Source: Lachnospiraceae bacterium NC2004 (lineage in GTDB: Bacteria > Bacillota > Clostridia > Lachnospirales > Lachnospiraceae). Taken from it: a DNA stretch of 64,000 bases. Positions 7,576 through 28,137 of this stretch are shown here, piece after piece. Made by a program: the position numbers and the translations under genes. Where the stretch lies: positions 496,001 to 560,000 of the forward strand of contig JHXB01000001.1 in NCBI GenBank assembly GCA_000621905.1, read 5' to 3'. Each line of letters starts with the position of its first letter. Positions within the stretch are counted from its first letter, which is position 1. Below the pieces are notes generated by a model, which worked only from the letters and a program-made list of their open reading frames with translations, was not told the DNA's origin and did no database searches.

Positions 7576-7586
7576 TCAGTTGAGTG

Positions 7587-7615
7587 TTGTCATTTGCCTT
7601 AAATTATGATAATAT
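7587..7615 (+). promoter_or_regulatory. Candidate sigma-A promoter ahead of the DUF4321-radC-mre block
   Basis: TTGTCA at 7587-7592 and TAATAT at 7610-7615, 17-base spacer, in the 84-base gap after the PLP enzyme gene. It would drive the DUF4321 gene, radC and mreB onward. Confidence 0.55.
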
Positions 7616-7659
7616 AATGGTTTGGTGGGTTTATAATATTCACACTGGAGGATATATAT

Positions 7660-7920
7660 ATGGCGAGTACGGGTACTAAATCTAAATGGACATTATTGCT
7701 GTTATTGCTTGCAGGAGTTGTTCTTGGAAGCTTTATCGGTATTTTATGCGAGAAGGTTTCATTTTTATCATGGTTATCATACGGACAGAGTTTTGGCTTA
7801 TCTAAGCCTTTTGTCCTTGATCTTGGTATTATGTGCCTGACATTTGGTCTGACTATTCAGATCAATCTTGCGAGCATTCTTGGTATTTTAATCGCTATTT
7901 TAATATATAGACTCATATAA
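7660..7920 (+). CDS. Small membrane protein, DUF4321-like
   Basis: An 86-residue protein with two clear hydrophobic segments (about 11-31 and 57-83), a basic N-terminus (KSKW) and Gly-rich helix GVVLGSFIGIL. GGAGG lies about 9 bases upstream of ATG 7660. It resembles the DUF4321 small membrane proteins that Clostridia often carry beside radC and mreB. The function is unknown; its place suggests an envelope or division link, by context only. Confidence 0.65.
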   Translation: MASTGTKSKWTLLLLLLAGVVLGSFIGILCEKVSFLSWLSYGQSFGLSKPFVLDLGIMCLTFGLTIQINLASILGILIAILIYRLI

Positions 7921-7959
7921 TACCTTTCATTTGCGCCTGGAGAGCGAAATGGAGGATAT

Positions 7960-15727: not shown

Positions 15728-15740
15728 GGAGGGGTTAACT

Positions 15741-16019
15741 ATGACTATTTTAGATAAGTTTTTTAAGAAACAGACCCCTGCCAGCAATGCTAAGGGTCGT
15801 TTACAAATGATGCTTGTAACCGACAGAGCTAACTGTTCGCCTGAGATTATGGAATCTATCAAGCGTGACATTATGGAAGTTTTGTCTAAGTACGTAGAGA
15901 TTGATCAGGAGAAGCTTGATATTCAGCTTAATCAGCAAGGAGAGGGTACAGAGAATGGTTCTGTTCCTGTATTACTTGCTAACATTCCTATCAAGAGCAT
16001 GAAGAATCGCAATAAGTAA
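15741..16019 (+). CDS. minE: Cell division topological specificity factor MinE
   Basis: A 92-residue MinE. The N-terminal amphipathic stretch ILDKFFKKQ binds membrane, and the following segment KGRLQMMLVTDR stimulates MinD ATPase. The C-terminal part, ending NIPIKSMKNR, matches the topological-specificity domain. AGGAGGGG precedes the ATG, 13 bases after minD. MinE occurs here although the same window also encodes DivIVA (21578). Confidence 0.95.
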   Translation: MTILDKFFKKQTPASNAKGRLQMMLVTDRANCSPEIMESIKRDIMEVLSKYVEIDQEKLDIQLNQQGEGTENGSVPVLLANIPIKSMKNRNK

Positions 16020-16054
16020 TACCAATTCCGGTAATACCAAGGAGTTTTAATTAT

Positions 16055-25006: not shown

Positions 25007-25086
25007 AGGCTTTTTAATTTTATTGTAATAATTACCATATAACAATCATTTTATATAATTTTTTTATCAAAAATACCAAAAATCAG

Positions 25087-25115
25087 TTGAAGACTAGATA
25101 AATAAATAGTATAAT
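25087..25115 (+). promoter_or_regulatory. Sigma-A promoter for the acidic small protein
   Basis: TTGAAG at 25087-25092 and TATAAT at 25110-25115, spacer 17, about 58 bases before the gene at 25174. A small ACAGGA/TCCTGT hairpin lies near the start of the leader. Confidence 0.72.
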
Positions 25116-25173
25116 GTATTTGTGACAGGAATCATTTCTCCTGTTATACTTTCTATCTAAGGAGGCATGTGGT

Positions 25174-25515
25174 ATGATTTTTTCTGAATCAGATGACGGC
25201 GTTATCGATTTGAACGAGATCGAAGACGACGATGATGGAGTTCTTGATTTGAACGCTTTAGACGATGATGATTCTAAAGATACCAAGAAGAAATCCAAGA
25301 AATCTAAGAAGAGCGAGGAGGACACTAGCAAGATGACTAAAGAACAGAAGGCTGCATATAAGAAAAGAGAAGCTAAGATTTTAGAGGCAGAGCTTGATTT
25401 TACCAAATCAATAATTGATGATGATGATTTTGATGACATCTATAAGGACAATATTAAGTTCTTGCTTGAGATTGCTGAGAAGTATAAAAAGACTTTAGTA
25501 AAAGACGAAGATTAA
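25174..25515 (+). CDS. Acidic/basic low-complexity small protein, unknown
   Basis: A 113-residue protein that I do not recognise. It has an Asp/Glu-rich first third with two near-repeats (GVIDLNEIEDDD and GVLDLNALDDDD), a lysine block (KKKSKKSKKSEE, about 39-50), then a helical Lys/Glu-rich end. There is no signal peptide or membrane segment. AAGGAGG lies 9 bases before ATG 25174, and it has its own promoter and terminator, so it is a well-expressed single-gene unit. It could be a nucleic-acid or ribosome-associated protein; that is a guess. Confidence 0.65.
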   Translation: MIFSESDDGVIDLNEIEDDDDGVLDLNALDDDDSKDTKKKSKKSKKSEEDTSKMTKEQKAAYKKREAKILEAELDFTKSIIDDDDFDDIYKDNIKFLLEIAEKYKKTLVKDED

Positions 25516-25672: not shown

Positions 25673-26296
25673 ATGAGTAAATCAATTATAACCATAGGAA
25701 GACAATTTGGTAGCGGAGGTCACGAGATTGCTGAGAAATTAGCTTCCAAACTTGATGTACCTTTTTATGATAAGGAGCTTTTGAAGCGTGCCGCTAAAGA
25801 AAGTGGATTATGTGAAGAGATTTTCGAGAACTTCGATGAGAAGCCTAGTTCCAGCTTTCTTTACTCATTAGTAATGGATCCTTATTCTTTCGGATATCCG
25901 GGCAACGGATATGAGATGCCGCTTAATCATAAAGTATTCCTTGCTGCATTTGACACAATTAAGAAGATTGCAGAAGAGGGGCCGAGCGTTATTGTTGGTA
26001 GATGTGCGGATTATGCATTACAGGATTTTGATAATGTTATCTCTATATTTATCAAAGCGCCTATTGATGACAGGATTAAGCGTATTTCCGACAAATACGA
26101 GCTTACTGAGCTTAAGGCTAAAGATATGATTTACAAGAAGGATAAGCAACGCGCAGGTTATTATAATTATTATTCTACCAAGAAATGGGCTGATATTAAG
26201 AGTTATGATCTTATTATTGACAGTAAGGTTCTTGGGATTGATGGAACTGTGGATTTGTTGGCGGATTATGTTAAGCGTGTTGATGAAGCGGATTAG
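25673..26296 (+). CDS. Cytidylate kinase-like family protein
   Basis: A 207-residue P-loop protein of the cytidylate kinase-like (AAA_26) family. The N-terminal loop GRQFGSGGHEIA has the family's GSGG in place of the Gly-Lys-Ser/Thr of true CMP kinase, so the lysine normally binding phosphate is absent, as is typical for this group. VIVGRCADYAL and the DDRIKRI lid follow. The substrate is unknown; a nucleotide or phosphorylated metabolite is likely. AGGAGG precedes ATG 25673. The gene stands alone between inverted repeats and a terminator. Confidence 0.85.
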   Translation: MSKSIITIGRQFGSGGHEIAEKLASKLDVPFYDKELLKRAAKESGLCEEIFENFDEKPSSSFLYSLVMDPYSFGYPGNGYEMPLNHKVFLAAFDTIKKIAEEGPSVIVGRCADYALQDFDNVISIFIKAPIDDRIKRISDKYELTELKAKDMIYKKDKQRAGYYNYYSTKKWADIKSYDLIIDSKVLGIDGTVDLLADYVKRVDEAD

Positions 26297-26318
26297 TTAT
26301 ATAGTTATATTGTAATAA

Positions 26319-26352
26319 AACCGGCATTCTATGTTTAGAGTGTCGGCTTTTT
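26319..26352 (+). terminator. Terminator after the cytidylate-kinase-like gene
   Basis: Stem AACCGGCATTCT with AGAGTGTCGGCTT (two G-U type pairs) around ATGTTT, followed by TTTTT. It lies about 25 bases after the stop codon. Confidence 0.78.
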
Positions 26353-26367
26353 ATGATTAAGGCACTC

Positions 26368-26496
26368 ACATGGATGCGTTACATAAACAGGCACGCTTGC
26401 GCTATGAACCTCGACGTAGCGGTACTAAACTCGTGCAAAGCACTCGTTAAGTGCCGACGTCTCAGACATGCCTGTTTATGTTTGACGCATTCATGT
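26368..26496. repeat. 129-base nested inverted-repeat element
   Basis: Outer arms at 26368-26393 and 26469-26496 pair over about 25 bases with one substitution and a 2-base bulge. Shared core: ACATAAACAGGCA. An inner arm pair GACGT.GGTACT (from 26413) with AGTGCC.ACGTC (to 26461), and a GTGC-AAA-GCAC hairpin, are nested inside. No open frame is found. It is more GC-rich than its surroundings. It may be a MITE-like or REP-like unit or the fold of a non-coding RNA. Together with the following entries it fills the 686-base gene-free gap 26297-26982. Confidence 0.75.
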
Positions 26497-26541
26497 TCGG
26501 GTAGGTATAAATTTAGATATTATAAAATATAATGATTTATG

Positions 26542-26569
26542 TGTCATCTTAAGCGTAGCGAAGAATCTT
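26542..26569 (+). repeat. Short dispersed repeat, copy 1 (TGTCAT...GAATCTT type)
   Basis: Contains TGTCATCTTAAGCG and TAGCGAAGAATCTT. The same unit occurs at 26645 and, inverted, at 28055. Motifs of the form TCATTCTGAGCGAAGCGAAGA are widespread unexplained intergenic repeats in many bacteria. Confidence 0.7.
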
Positions 26570-26640
26570 GATATGTAATTATTTATGAATATTAATGATA
26601 TTCTATGTAAATGTATAAGTTATATAAGATTATATACTTT

Positions 26641-26686
26641 AAATTGTTATTCTGAGCGTAGCGAAGAATCTTATATATAACAATTT
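26641..26686 (+). repeat. Short dispersed repeat, copy 2, framed by a 10-bp inverted repeat
   Basis: The unit TTCTGAGCGTAGCGAAGAAT lies between AAATTGTTAT (26641-26650) and its exact complement ATAACAATTT (26677-26686). The inverted frame suggests the unit inserted or folds as one block. Confidence 0.72.
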
Positions 26687-26700
26687 ATGAATACTATAAC

Positions 26701-26763
26701 ATAATCCTCAGGGTGGCGTGGCCACCGAAGTATGGTTTGGGGAATGAGTGAACCATGGATTAT
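26701..26763 (+). ncRNA. Candidate structured RNA or repeat: 63-base three-way junction
   Basis: Closing stem ATAATCC (26701-26707) with GGATTAT (26757-26763), perfect. Inside it are hairpin GGTGGC-GTG-GCCACC (26712-26726) and hairpin ATGGTT...AACCAT (26732-26737 with 26751-26756). All three stems are perfect and non-overlapping, which is unlikely by chance in AT-rich spacer. An intrinsic terminator follows 35 bases later, with no gene between, so this may be the body of a small RNA. No good promoter is seen upstream, and the reverse strand begins TGTCATTC like the nearby repeats, so a repeat family is an alternative. Confidence 0.45.
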
Positions 26764-26797
26764 TTGGAATGACAATTAATATAATATGAATAACTAT

Positions 26798-26828
26798 AAG
26801 CTGCCTGTTATATATTGGCAGCTTTTTT
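26798..26828 (+). terminator. Orphan intrinsic terminator
   Basis: Perfect 8-bp stem AAGCTGCC/GGCAGCTT (26798-26805 with 26817-26824) followed by a T run. The nearest upstream gene already has its own terminator at 26319, so the transcript ended here is non-coding or read-through. Confidence 0.82.
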
Positions 26829-26839
26829 GTAAGTATTTA

Positions 26840-26868
26840 TTGACTTTTAGCGTATTATGATATATTCT
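26840..26868 (+). promoter_or_regulatory. Promoter of the tyrosine recombinase gene
   Basis: TTGACT at 26840-26845 and TATTCT at 26863-26868 with a 17-base spacer, directly after the orphan terminator. A start site near 26875 places the 16-bp inverted repeat at the very start of the leader. Confidence 0.6.
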
Positions 26869-26881
26869 ATATATATGGGTG

Positions 26882-26917
26882 CAATTATTCGTTAAACTCG
26901 CGTTTAACGAATAATTG
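26882..26917. promoter_or_regulatory. Perfect 16-bp inverted repeat in the recombinase leader
   Basis: CAATTATTCGTTAAAC (26882-26897) and its exact complement (26902-26917) around TCGC. It lies between the promoter and the AAGGAGG site of the recombinase gene. It may be an operator, a recombinase-binding (core-type) site, or an RNA hairpin at the 5' end of the message. Confidence 0.65.
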
Positions 26918-26982
26918 GGATGAAGTTATTATACTCTCATAGCACAGATTCAGCAATATTTATCTAGTATAAGGAGGCAATC

Positions 26983-28047
26983 ATGCCAACAGATAATGAT
27001 TACTTTGATCAAAAGAATATCGAATACGAAAAAAAGATAAAAGAACTTTTAAAGGAACTTCCTAAGTTCTGTAATTCATTCTTTATTGCCATGGAGCCTA
27101 ATAAGCTTGCAAGGACCCGTATGGCGTATGCATATGACCTTGTGACTTATTTTATGTATCTTAAAGGCAATATATCCACATTTAAAGATACACCTATGCA
27201 TGATTTACCTTTAAGTCTTATCGAATCACAGACGGCTGATGATATCAGAGAATATATCAGCTGGCTTAGATTATATGATAATGGTGATAAGGAAATCACT
27301 AACTCGGAATGCGGTATGAAGAGAAAACTGTCTACTCTTCGTTCGTTCTACAAGTATATGTATCATAGTGAGAAAATCAAAAGTGATCCTGCATCCTTGG
27401 TTGATACACCTAAGATTCATGAAAAAGCTATTATCAGACTTGATATTGACGAGATTGCCAAGCTCCTTGATGAGGTTGAATCAGGTGATAATCTTACTAA
27501 GAATCAACAGAAATACCACAACAAGAACAAAGAACGAGATCTCGCTATTATGACTCTTCTACTTGGTACAGGTATGCGTGTATCTGAACTTGTTGGTATA
27601 GATATCAGTGATTTAGATTTTGATAACAATTGTGTTAAAATCAGACGAAAAGGTGGCAATGAAGCTATTATATACTTTAGTGACGAAGTTAAAGTAGCCC
27701 TGGAAGACTATCTTGATATCAGAGAGAATATGAATCCTCTTCCGGGTCATGAAGATGCACTCTTCCTCTCCCTTCAGAATAAGCGTATGGGAGTTCGCTC
27801 AATTGAGCTATTGGTAAAGAAATACTCTAAGTTAGTTACTACCCTTAAAAAGATCACTCCACACAAGCTTAGAAGTACATATGGCACTGCTCTTTATCAG
27901 GAAACAGGCGATATATATCTTGTAGCCGATGTACTTGGTCACAAGGATGTCAATACTACCAGAAGACACTACGCTGCTATTGAAGAAAACAGACGACGAA
28001 GCGCTGCTGATAAGGTTACACTTCGCGAGAAACGTAGCGATGATTAA
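26983..28047 (+). CDS. Tyrosine recombinase, XerC/XerD-like, intact
   Basis: A 354-residue site-specific recombinase. An N-terminal SAM-like core-binding domain (about 20-140) precedes the catalytic domain. All active-site residues are present: Arg199 (GTGMR), Lys223 (RRKGG), His294 and Arg297 (PHKLR), His320 (LGH) and the nucleophile Tyr330 (RRHY). It is longer than XerC/D by about 50 residues, with a charged N-terminal tail. AAGGAGG precedes ATG 26983. It may act as a chromosomal XerC-like protein or as a domesticated integrase; a broken relative lies 1.5 kb downstream, and structured repeats flank it. Confidence 0.92.
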   Translation: MPTDNDYFDQKNIEYEKKIKELLKELPKFCNSFFIAMEPNKLARTRMAYAYDLVTYFMYLKGNISTFKDTPMHDLPLSLIESQTADDIREYISWLRLYDNGDKEITNSECGMKRKLSTLRSFYKYMYHSEKIKSDPASLVDTPKIHEKAIIRLDIDEIAKLLDEVESGDNLTKNQQKYHNKNKERDLAIMTLLLGTGMRVSELVGIDISDLDFDNNCVKIRRKGGNEAIIYFSDEVKVALEDYLDIRENMNPLPGHEDALFLSLQNKRMGVRSIELLVKKYSKLVTTLKKITPHKLRSTYGTALYQETGDIYLVADVLGHKDVNTTRRHYAAIEENRRRSAADKVTLREKRSDD

Positions 28048-28054
28048 TCATAAT

Positions 28055-28133
28055 AAGATTCTCCGCTTCGCTCAGAATGACAGGATGACTGTAGAATTAT
28101 GTCATCCTGAGGAGCTTTGTGACGAAGGATCTT
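28055..28133. repeat. Inverted pair of dispersed repeats after the recombinase gene
   Basis: Copy 3 (28055-28082, reverse orientation: AAGATTCT.CGCTTCGCTCAGAATGACA) faces a diverged copy 4 (28100-28133: GTCATCCTGAG...GAAGGATCTT). They form imperfect arms of about 33 bases around GTAGAATTAT. Lying between convergent genes, the pair could also serve as a two-way terminator. Confidence 0.72.
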
Positions 28134-28137
28134 AACT

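Follow-up and report, generated by a model that had tools for sequence, protein, structure and literature searches.

A three-stem palindromic element beside a candidate dif site in a Lachnospiraceae genome: probably a composite repeat rather than a dedicated small RNA

Does a small RNA lie in the spacer that separates a cytidylate kinase-like gene from a tyrosine recombinase gene in Lachnospiraceae bacterium NC2004? The source genome (G000) is a draft of 3.37 Mb in 56 contigs, and the whole stretch of DNA analysed here, referred to as the window, comprises 64,000 nucleotides (C1:496001-560000). The spacer (26297-26982) is preceded by the kinase-like gene (Cytidylate_kin2; 25673..26296, + strand) and followed by a gene for an XerS-like tyrosine recombinase of 354 aa (26983..28047, + strand). 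A first-pass annotation had proposed that a three-way junction and an orphan terminator within 26701-26828 represent a short structured RNA, or alternatively a folded mobile repeat. The sister genome G003 was the nearest relative compared.

Fold computation placed the three-way junction at 26701..26763 (+ strand), a sequence of which 62 of the 63 bases are identical in G003. An outer stem 1 of 7 bp (26701-26707/26757-26763), stem 2 of 6 bp (26712-26717/26721-26726) and stem 3 of 6 bp (26732-26737/26751-26756) all display perfect pairing, and together they form both the minimum-energy and the centroid fold of the RNA (-20.3 kcal/mol). The three perfect and compatible stems that had been proposed were thus confirmed. 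The accompanying description of the fold as having almost no unpaired sequence was overstated; with 7+6+6 pairs, 25 of the 63 bases are unpaired. In terms of RNA folding energy, the 63 bases are only mildly unusual (z -1.70; 15 of 200 shuffles equally good), as are the element and terminator folded together (z -1.86; 12 of 200). The values were z -2.52 (1 of 200) for the reverse strand with flanks and z -2.68 (5 of 200) for the element folded as DNA. The geometry itself is rare. Of 14,210 63-mers taken from both strands at 9-nt steps, 2 folded into a three-way junction in which no stem was shorter than 6 bp, neither of them being the element, and the same three-stem geometry occurred once in 5,000 mononucleotide shuffles. 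As for the suggestion that the reverse strand resembles nearby repeats, TGTCATTC does occur at 26767-26774 on the - strand, but this 8-mer alone proves nothing, as its count in the window (6 matches against 2.93 expected) is reached in 7 of 100 shuffles.

We then considered signals for transcription. An intrinsic terminator, consisting of an 8-bp stem (26798-26805/26817-26824) and a T-run, is present at 26798..26828 (+ strand) with a fold z of -3.58. No ORF of 60 aa or more intervenes between the element and this site, which agrees with the first-pass description of a strong terminator with no gene in between. A simple terminator scan of the window does not list it, and the presumed cause is its 11-nt loop, as that scan accepts loops of 3-8 nt. 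The same scan lists the G003 counterpart. A first terminator-like site was found by the scan 3' of the kinase gene (26321..26346, + strand) and is absent from the list of the same scan in G003, where no terminator is seen directly 3' of the kinase gene, just the orphan one. A promoter had been named as the missing piece. In a scan with a sigma-70-type consensus, the spacer contains 6 matches against 4.8 in shuffles, and none is positioned for transcription of the RNA to begin 5' of 26701; on the + strand, the closest one (26677-26705) extends into stem 1. Ahead of the recombinase gene, TTGACT-17-TATTCT (26840..26868, + strand) resembles a promoter for this gene; it is a consensus match only, and G003 has one too. 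A search with Rfam 15 gave no match at gathering score in the 64 kb and four weak matches in the spacer, all far under gathering, ruling out a known RNA family. ORFs of at least 20 aa that overlap 26701-26828 encode 20-34 aa only; a codon test has no power on this segment because there are just two substitutions in 128 bp. Phage origin was also considered; the one short match (20% of the query), to an archaeal virus, was taken as chance. With no usable promoter match and no Rfam match at gathering score, the small-RNA proposal is unproven, and its folded-repeat alternative gained support in the case of stem 2.

This support came from a BLAST search of the element against its own genome, which returned one full match and 42 partial matches (E up to 10). 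Of the latter, the top 20 (E up to 0.02) all fell inside query bases 4-44 of 141. This region contains a short palindrome, CCTCAGGGTGGC-NNN-GCCACCG (26706..26727, + strand), designated repeat ii, which was recognized by BLAST, pattern search and copy alignment. The exact pattern is present 20 times in G000 and 18 times in G003 and is absent from G001, G002 and G004, and a reversed control pattern gave no matches. When copies were aligned in 39 rows, all six stem pairs were kept in 38 of them, with G-T counted as a pair. The rows are a biased sample, as the loci were fetched by similarity to the element; at least two represent one place entered twice, and two are the element and its G003 counterpart. 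Two-sided stem changes were found as GGTGGT/ACCACC in four rows and as GGTGAC/GTCACC in three rows from one tandem array. Judging from these alignments and counts, stem 2 is a member of a repeat family spread through G000 and G003. We also noted that locus L034 (G003:C1:141501-141628) contains three tandem repeat ii variants with the compensatory change GGTGAC/GTCACC at a spacing of ~42 bp.

By eye, the outer arms AATCC...GGATT can pair in just a few other repeat ii copies. The extra hairpin between repeat ii and the closing arm (26731..26756, + strand) is found at full length in G000 and G003 only. Among 397 genomes of the family, in a search that scored at most two candidates per genome, these two alone gave a full-length match to 26726-26796, and 18 further genomes matched by pieces of 20-43 nt only. 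The complete three-stem form occurs once in each of G000 and G003, and is therefore not itself a repeat family. The element had no match anywhere in three other congeners, two of which are 84% and one 94% complete.

In the comparison with G003, 126 of the 128 bases in 26701-26828 were identical, as were 345 of the 361 in 26560-26920, without indels. Both substitutions in the 128 bases lie outside the stems, at 26739 (a possible terminal wobble pair) and 26816 (the terminator loop); stems 1 and 3 are without variation in G003, their sole homologue. At four-fold sites, 1,908 of 3,217 were identical (59%), a count in which ORFs were taken by length alone and at least one (25083-25439, - strand) is probably spurious. 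The 126/128 level was reached in 292 of 31,713 overlapping windows over 32 kb, and 26660-26875 was the sole spacer stretch among them, the others being wholly or partly coding. The high identity of 26660-26875, set against 59% at four-fold sites, could reflect constraint. The spacers 7576-7959 and 15728-16054 were dropped as non-coding yardsticks because they resemble small genes below the 100-aa cut. A control then drew on other repeat-bearing spacers. The core identities of four other orthologous repeat ii spacers were 98.1, 97.5, 98.8 and 92.2 or 95.4%; for the last (L044), two partners are possible and coverage of the core is incomplete. The core of the element scored 96.3% in the same control. 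Nine of the 15 alignments in this control missed the repeat core and were not counted, including L006/L031 and L050/L041. As four other repeat-bearing spacers score 92-99%, the 126/128 identity is not special; conservation seemed strong evidence for an RNA at first and was weakened by this control. The alignable repeat spacers of this genome pair are thus generally well conserved, whatever the cause.

The spacer contains further repeats upstream of the element. The core of repeat iii (GTACTAAATTCGTGCT type; 26422..26437, + strand) lies inside a stretch, ~26361-26510, that is repeat-like by inspection. It is followed by a degenerate copy of repeat i (TTCTGAGCG-N-AGCGAAGAATC type; 26547..26567, + strand) and another repeat i copy (26650..26670, + strand). 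With the pattern GAGCG-N-AGCGAAGAATC and up to one mismatch, 176 copies of repeat i were found in G000, and the control had no matches. The longer pattern TTCTGAGCG-N-AGCGAAGAATC is present in 148 copies in G000, 160 in G003 and 83 in G080, a member of another genus of the same family; two genomes have 1 and 2 copies, and 392 of the 397 family genomes have none. The repeats are clustered. At 13 of 30 repeat ii places, a same-strand copy of repeat i follows at a distance of up to 120 nt, against a background of 12 in 1,449 same-locus stretches, and repeat iii precedes at up to 250 nt in 21 of the 30, a figure that stands without a computed background. The element, in G000 and G003 alike, has repeat i on its upstream side; the 120 nt downstream of it are free of repeat i, and the 250 nt upstream are free of repeat iii. 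The order in the spacer (iii, i, i, ii, with the ii match at 26709) thus departs from the common iii-ii-i grouping, as repeat i precedes repeat ii. Repeat iii is a long family with the core GTACTAAATTCGTGCT...CACTCATTAAGTAC, often located 5' of repeat ii in loci L009-L028 and L031-L049, and is present in many spacers of G000 and G003. Directly 3' of the recombinase gene, 28049-28137 harbours a repeat i copy and a related ATCCTGAG...GAAGGATC palindrome, so that the gene is bracketed by repeats. A role of repeat i as a polar signal of the chromosome arm was rejected, as the orientations left of the candidate dif site described below are too mixed (16 + and 8 - copies).

Concerning mobilisation, genes for RAYT-type Y1 transposases number four in G000 and three in G003, and none were found in G001, G002 and G004. 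Neither repeat i nor repeat ii lies closer than 1.5 kb to any of the four G000 genes, and their wider flanks (33 kb) include one repeat i copy. Only one of the seven Y1 genes, L179 (near the end of G003 contig C78), has a repeat i nearby, ~0.2 kb away on one side. Repeats and transposase genes co-occur within the genus. On the other hand, G080 (84% complete) has 83 repeat i copies and no REP-transposase hit, and G008, G019 and G030 have REP-transposase genes and no repeat i. A link between RAYT proteins and the repeats is therefore not established, and the occurrence of repeat i in G080 suggests horizontal spread. The patchiness of repeat i resembles that of mobile repeats.

The DNA beyond the terminator provided the stronger result, and in our view the part worth following. 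We found a candidate dif site of 11+6+11 structure, TATTCGTTAAA-CTCGCG-TTTAACGAATA (26886..26913, + strand), which is the core of a 16-bp inverted repeat (26882-26917). These 28 bp are non-coding and lie 57 bp past the terminator and 69 bp before the recombinase gene. The core is unchanged in G003, with differences in the bases immediately outside. The cumulative GC skew of the 581,799-bp contig peaks at window position 27732, 846 bp from the candidate site, and in 20-kb bins the skew is positive in all bins before 520001 and negative in all from 520001 on. Around 26-30 kb of the window, the skew is ~+0.2 on the left and ~-0.2 on the right. The window looks like it spans the replication terminus. 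In G003, where 40 of 46.5 kb were examined, the skew peak is at C21:4123 and the palindrome at C21:5342.

The site was then searched for in other genomes. With two mismatches allowed, the palindrome matched in 7 of 20 genomes and was unmatched in 13. It is found at one place in G000 and five other matching genomes and at two in G002, and with the exception of the second G002 copy, all are upstream of a recombinase gene on the same contig, at 3 kb or less. For a scan by weight matrix, 80 recombinase loci were collected on the basis of protein similarity; one of these is G003 once more, and another is probably G002. A site scoring above the best of 80 shuffled loci was present in 56 loci, in every case upstream of the recombinase gene by 3.4 kb or less; as the matrix had been built from 26 of the 56, the loci independent of it gave 30 of 54. 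No such site was found in the other 24. The candidate sites of related loci have two conserved arms round a variable 6-bp centre, and several Blautia loci have a site of variant arm sequence. Across the site, GC skew turned from positive to negative in 33 of 46 measurable loci, the reverse in none, and neither in 13. Among 13 measurable loci without a site, the same switch was seen in L137 (clear) and L164 (marginal), and L109 was marginally reversed. With regard to the recombinase, XerS was the best-scoring NCBIfam model at 201 bits, below its cut-off of 267, and relatives with solved structures include XerA, XerD and XerH. Taken at the sequence level, 26886-26913 is probably dif, the site of chromosome separation at the terminus. 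The criteria that we applied are those of Carnoy and Roten for dif (PMC2731167). A prediction of dif in 97 Firmicutes (PMC3025954) has supplementary tables that may include Lachnospiraceae. A literature search, outside of which most subscription papers fall, gave no paper with both XerS and Lachnospiraceae, and term searches in three dif/Xer papers gave no mention of Lachnospir- or Lachno-. On this basis, we make no claim that the candidate site is unpublished.

Returning to the element, we regard it as real sequence with, most likely, an ordinary repeat-derived fold. The 63 bases would represent, with a probability that we place at roughly 0.7, a composite palindromic repeat, possibly carried on a 3' read-through tail, rather than a dedicated small RNA. 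Direct observations are that stem 2 belongs to a repeat family and carries compensatory changes across its copies, that the repeats cluster and that the whole element is confined to two of the genomes searched. In the proposed route, the stem 2 hairpin and its flank AATCCTCAG... would be a copy of repeat ii, spread in G000 and the sister species. A second hairpin of ~26 bp, presumably an insertion between stem 2 and the closing arm GGATTAT, would have converted the simple hairpin to a three-way junction. Any transcript would most likely be a read-through 3' tail from the kinase gene that passes via the hairpins, and the terminator at 26798-26828 may end this read-through before the dif/recombinase module. 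The G003 scan, which shows the orphan terminator and none directly 3' of the kinase gene, fits a role as a read-through tail.

We weighed this reading against others. The probabilities that we give to these do not exclude the preferred reading, as two of the rivals could also hold for an element that arose from repeats. It is unlikely that the fold is a chance one round a single repeat hairpin, with stems 1 and 3 accidental in AT-rich sequence. This possibility overlaps with a composite repeat and differs by denying the three-stem form any meaning; the modest RNA z of -1.70, the independence of stem 2 as a repeat and the few other copies in which the outer arms can pair by eye are in its favour, but three stems of at least 6 bp in just 2 of 14,210 sampled windows and the DNA z of -2.68 speak against accident. 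Quite improbable, in our estimation, is a stand-alone small RNA composed of the junction as a 5' domain and the terminator and transcribed from a dedicated promoter inside the conserved block 26571-26700. The three other congeners have no match to the element, stem 2 belongs to a genomic repeat family, no promoter match is usably placed, no Rfam match reaches gathering score, and four other repeat-bearing spacers are equally conserved; these points outweigh the identity of 126/128 with both changes outside the stems, the strong terminator and the rare geometry.

We also considered a transcription shield or accessory DNA of a dif/Xer terminus module, a reading that would be compatible with a repeat origin. 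In its favour, the element and terminator occupy the DNA from 185 to 58 bp on the left side of the candidate dif core, the high-identity block extends to dif, and the terminator stands between kinase transcription on one side and dif with the promoter-like site of the recombinase gene on the other. We find this very improbable, as the other three congeners have the palindrome without a match to the element, and repeat i barely clusters at the terminus (3 of 25 C1 copies within 10 kb of dif, against 0.9 expected). A broader proposal is that many Lachnospiraceae possess their own single-recombinase dif/Xer class, with an XerS-like enzyme and an 11+6+11 site upstream at the terminus, and that the element and terminator are a functional part of it here, as shield or conserved RNA; taken as a whole, it is highly doubtful. 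The composite repeat remains our preferred reading. As a caution, interspersed repeats can give rise to a tidy fold of several stems ahead of a terminator, and conservation in two related genomes is not proof of an RNA if other repeat spacers are equally conserved. The candidate dif/XerS-like pair makes chromosome dimer resolution in Lachnospiraceae testable, and a recognisable dif motif by an XerS-like gene would allow replication termini to be located in many genomes of the family.

Among known systems, REP/BIME repeats with RAYT transposases are characterized by a GTAG or CGTC end tag and a RAYT gene flanked by two inverted REPs (PMC2817692, PMC3733652). Repeats i and ii are likewise short palindromes that show compensatory stem changes, hybrid clusters and a patchy species distribution; repeat i exceeds 100 copies, and Y1 transposases are present in G000 and G003. 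They differ in that the copies here have no GTAG or CGTC end tag by inspection, none of the seven Y1 genes has repeats on both sides, and in G080 repeat i is not accompanied by any REP-transposase hit. As the end tag and flanked transposase are absent, we do not file the element as a strict REP; it would work like REP/BIME or BOX-type modular repeats. Among the matches listed in a literature search, no paper dealt with Lachnospiraceae REPs, judged by title, and searches by repeat i sequence strings gave only papers unrelated by title. In the pneumococcal BOX, an inner module can be added with the outer structure little disturbed (PMC3049150). The element is also a modular composite repeat of a Gram-positive bacterium with an inner module inside an outer fold; it differs in that the composite was found once per genome, and the likeness is one of architecture. 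The XerS/difSL single-recombinase module (PMC5357621, PMC2731167) comprises a recombinase of 356 aa and a difSL site with an 11-bp centre. The candidate site is 11+6+11, with a centre of 6 bp rather than the 11 bp given there, and the recombinase has an XerS-model score of 201, below the cut-off of 267. In common with the module so described, the recombinase is of similar length (354 against 356 aa), and the site adjoins the gene at a GC-skew peak and consists of inverted repeats round a variable centre.
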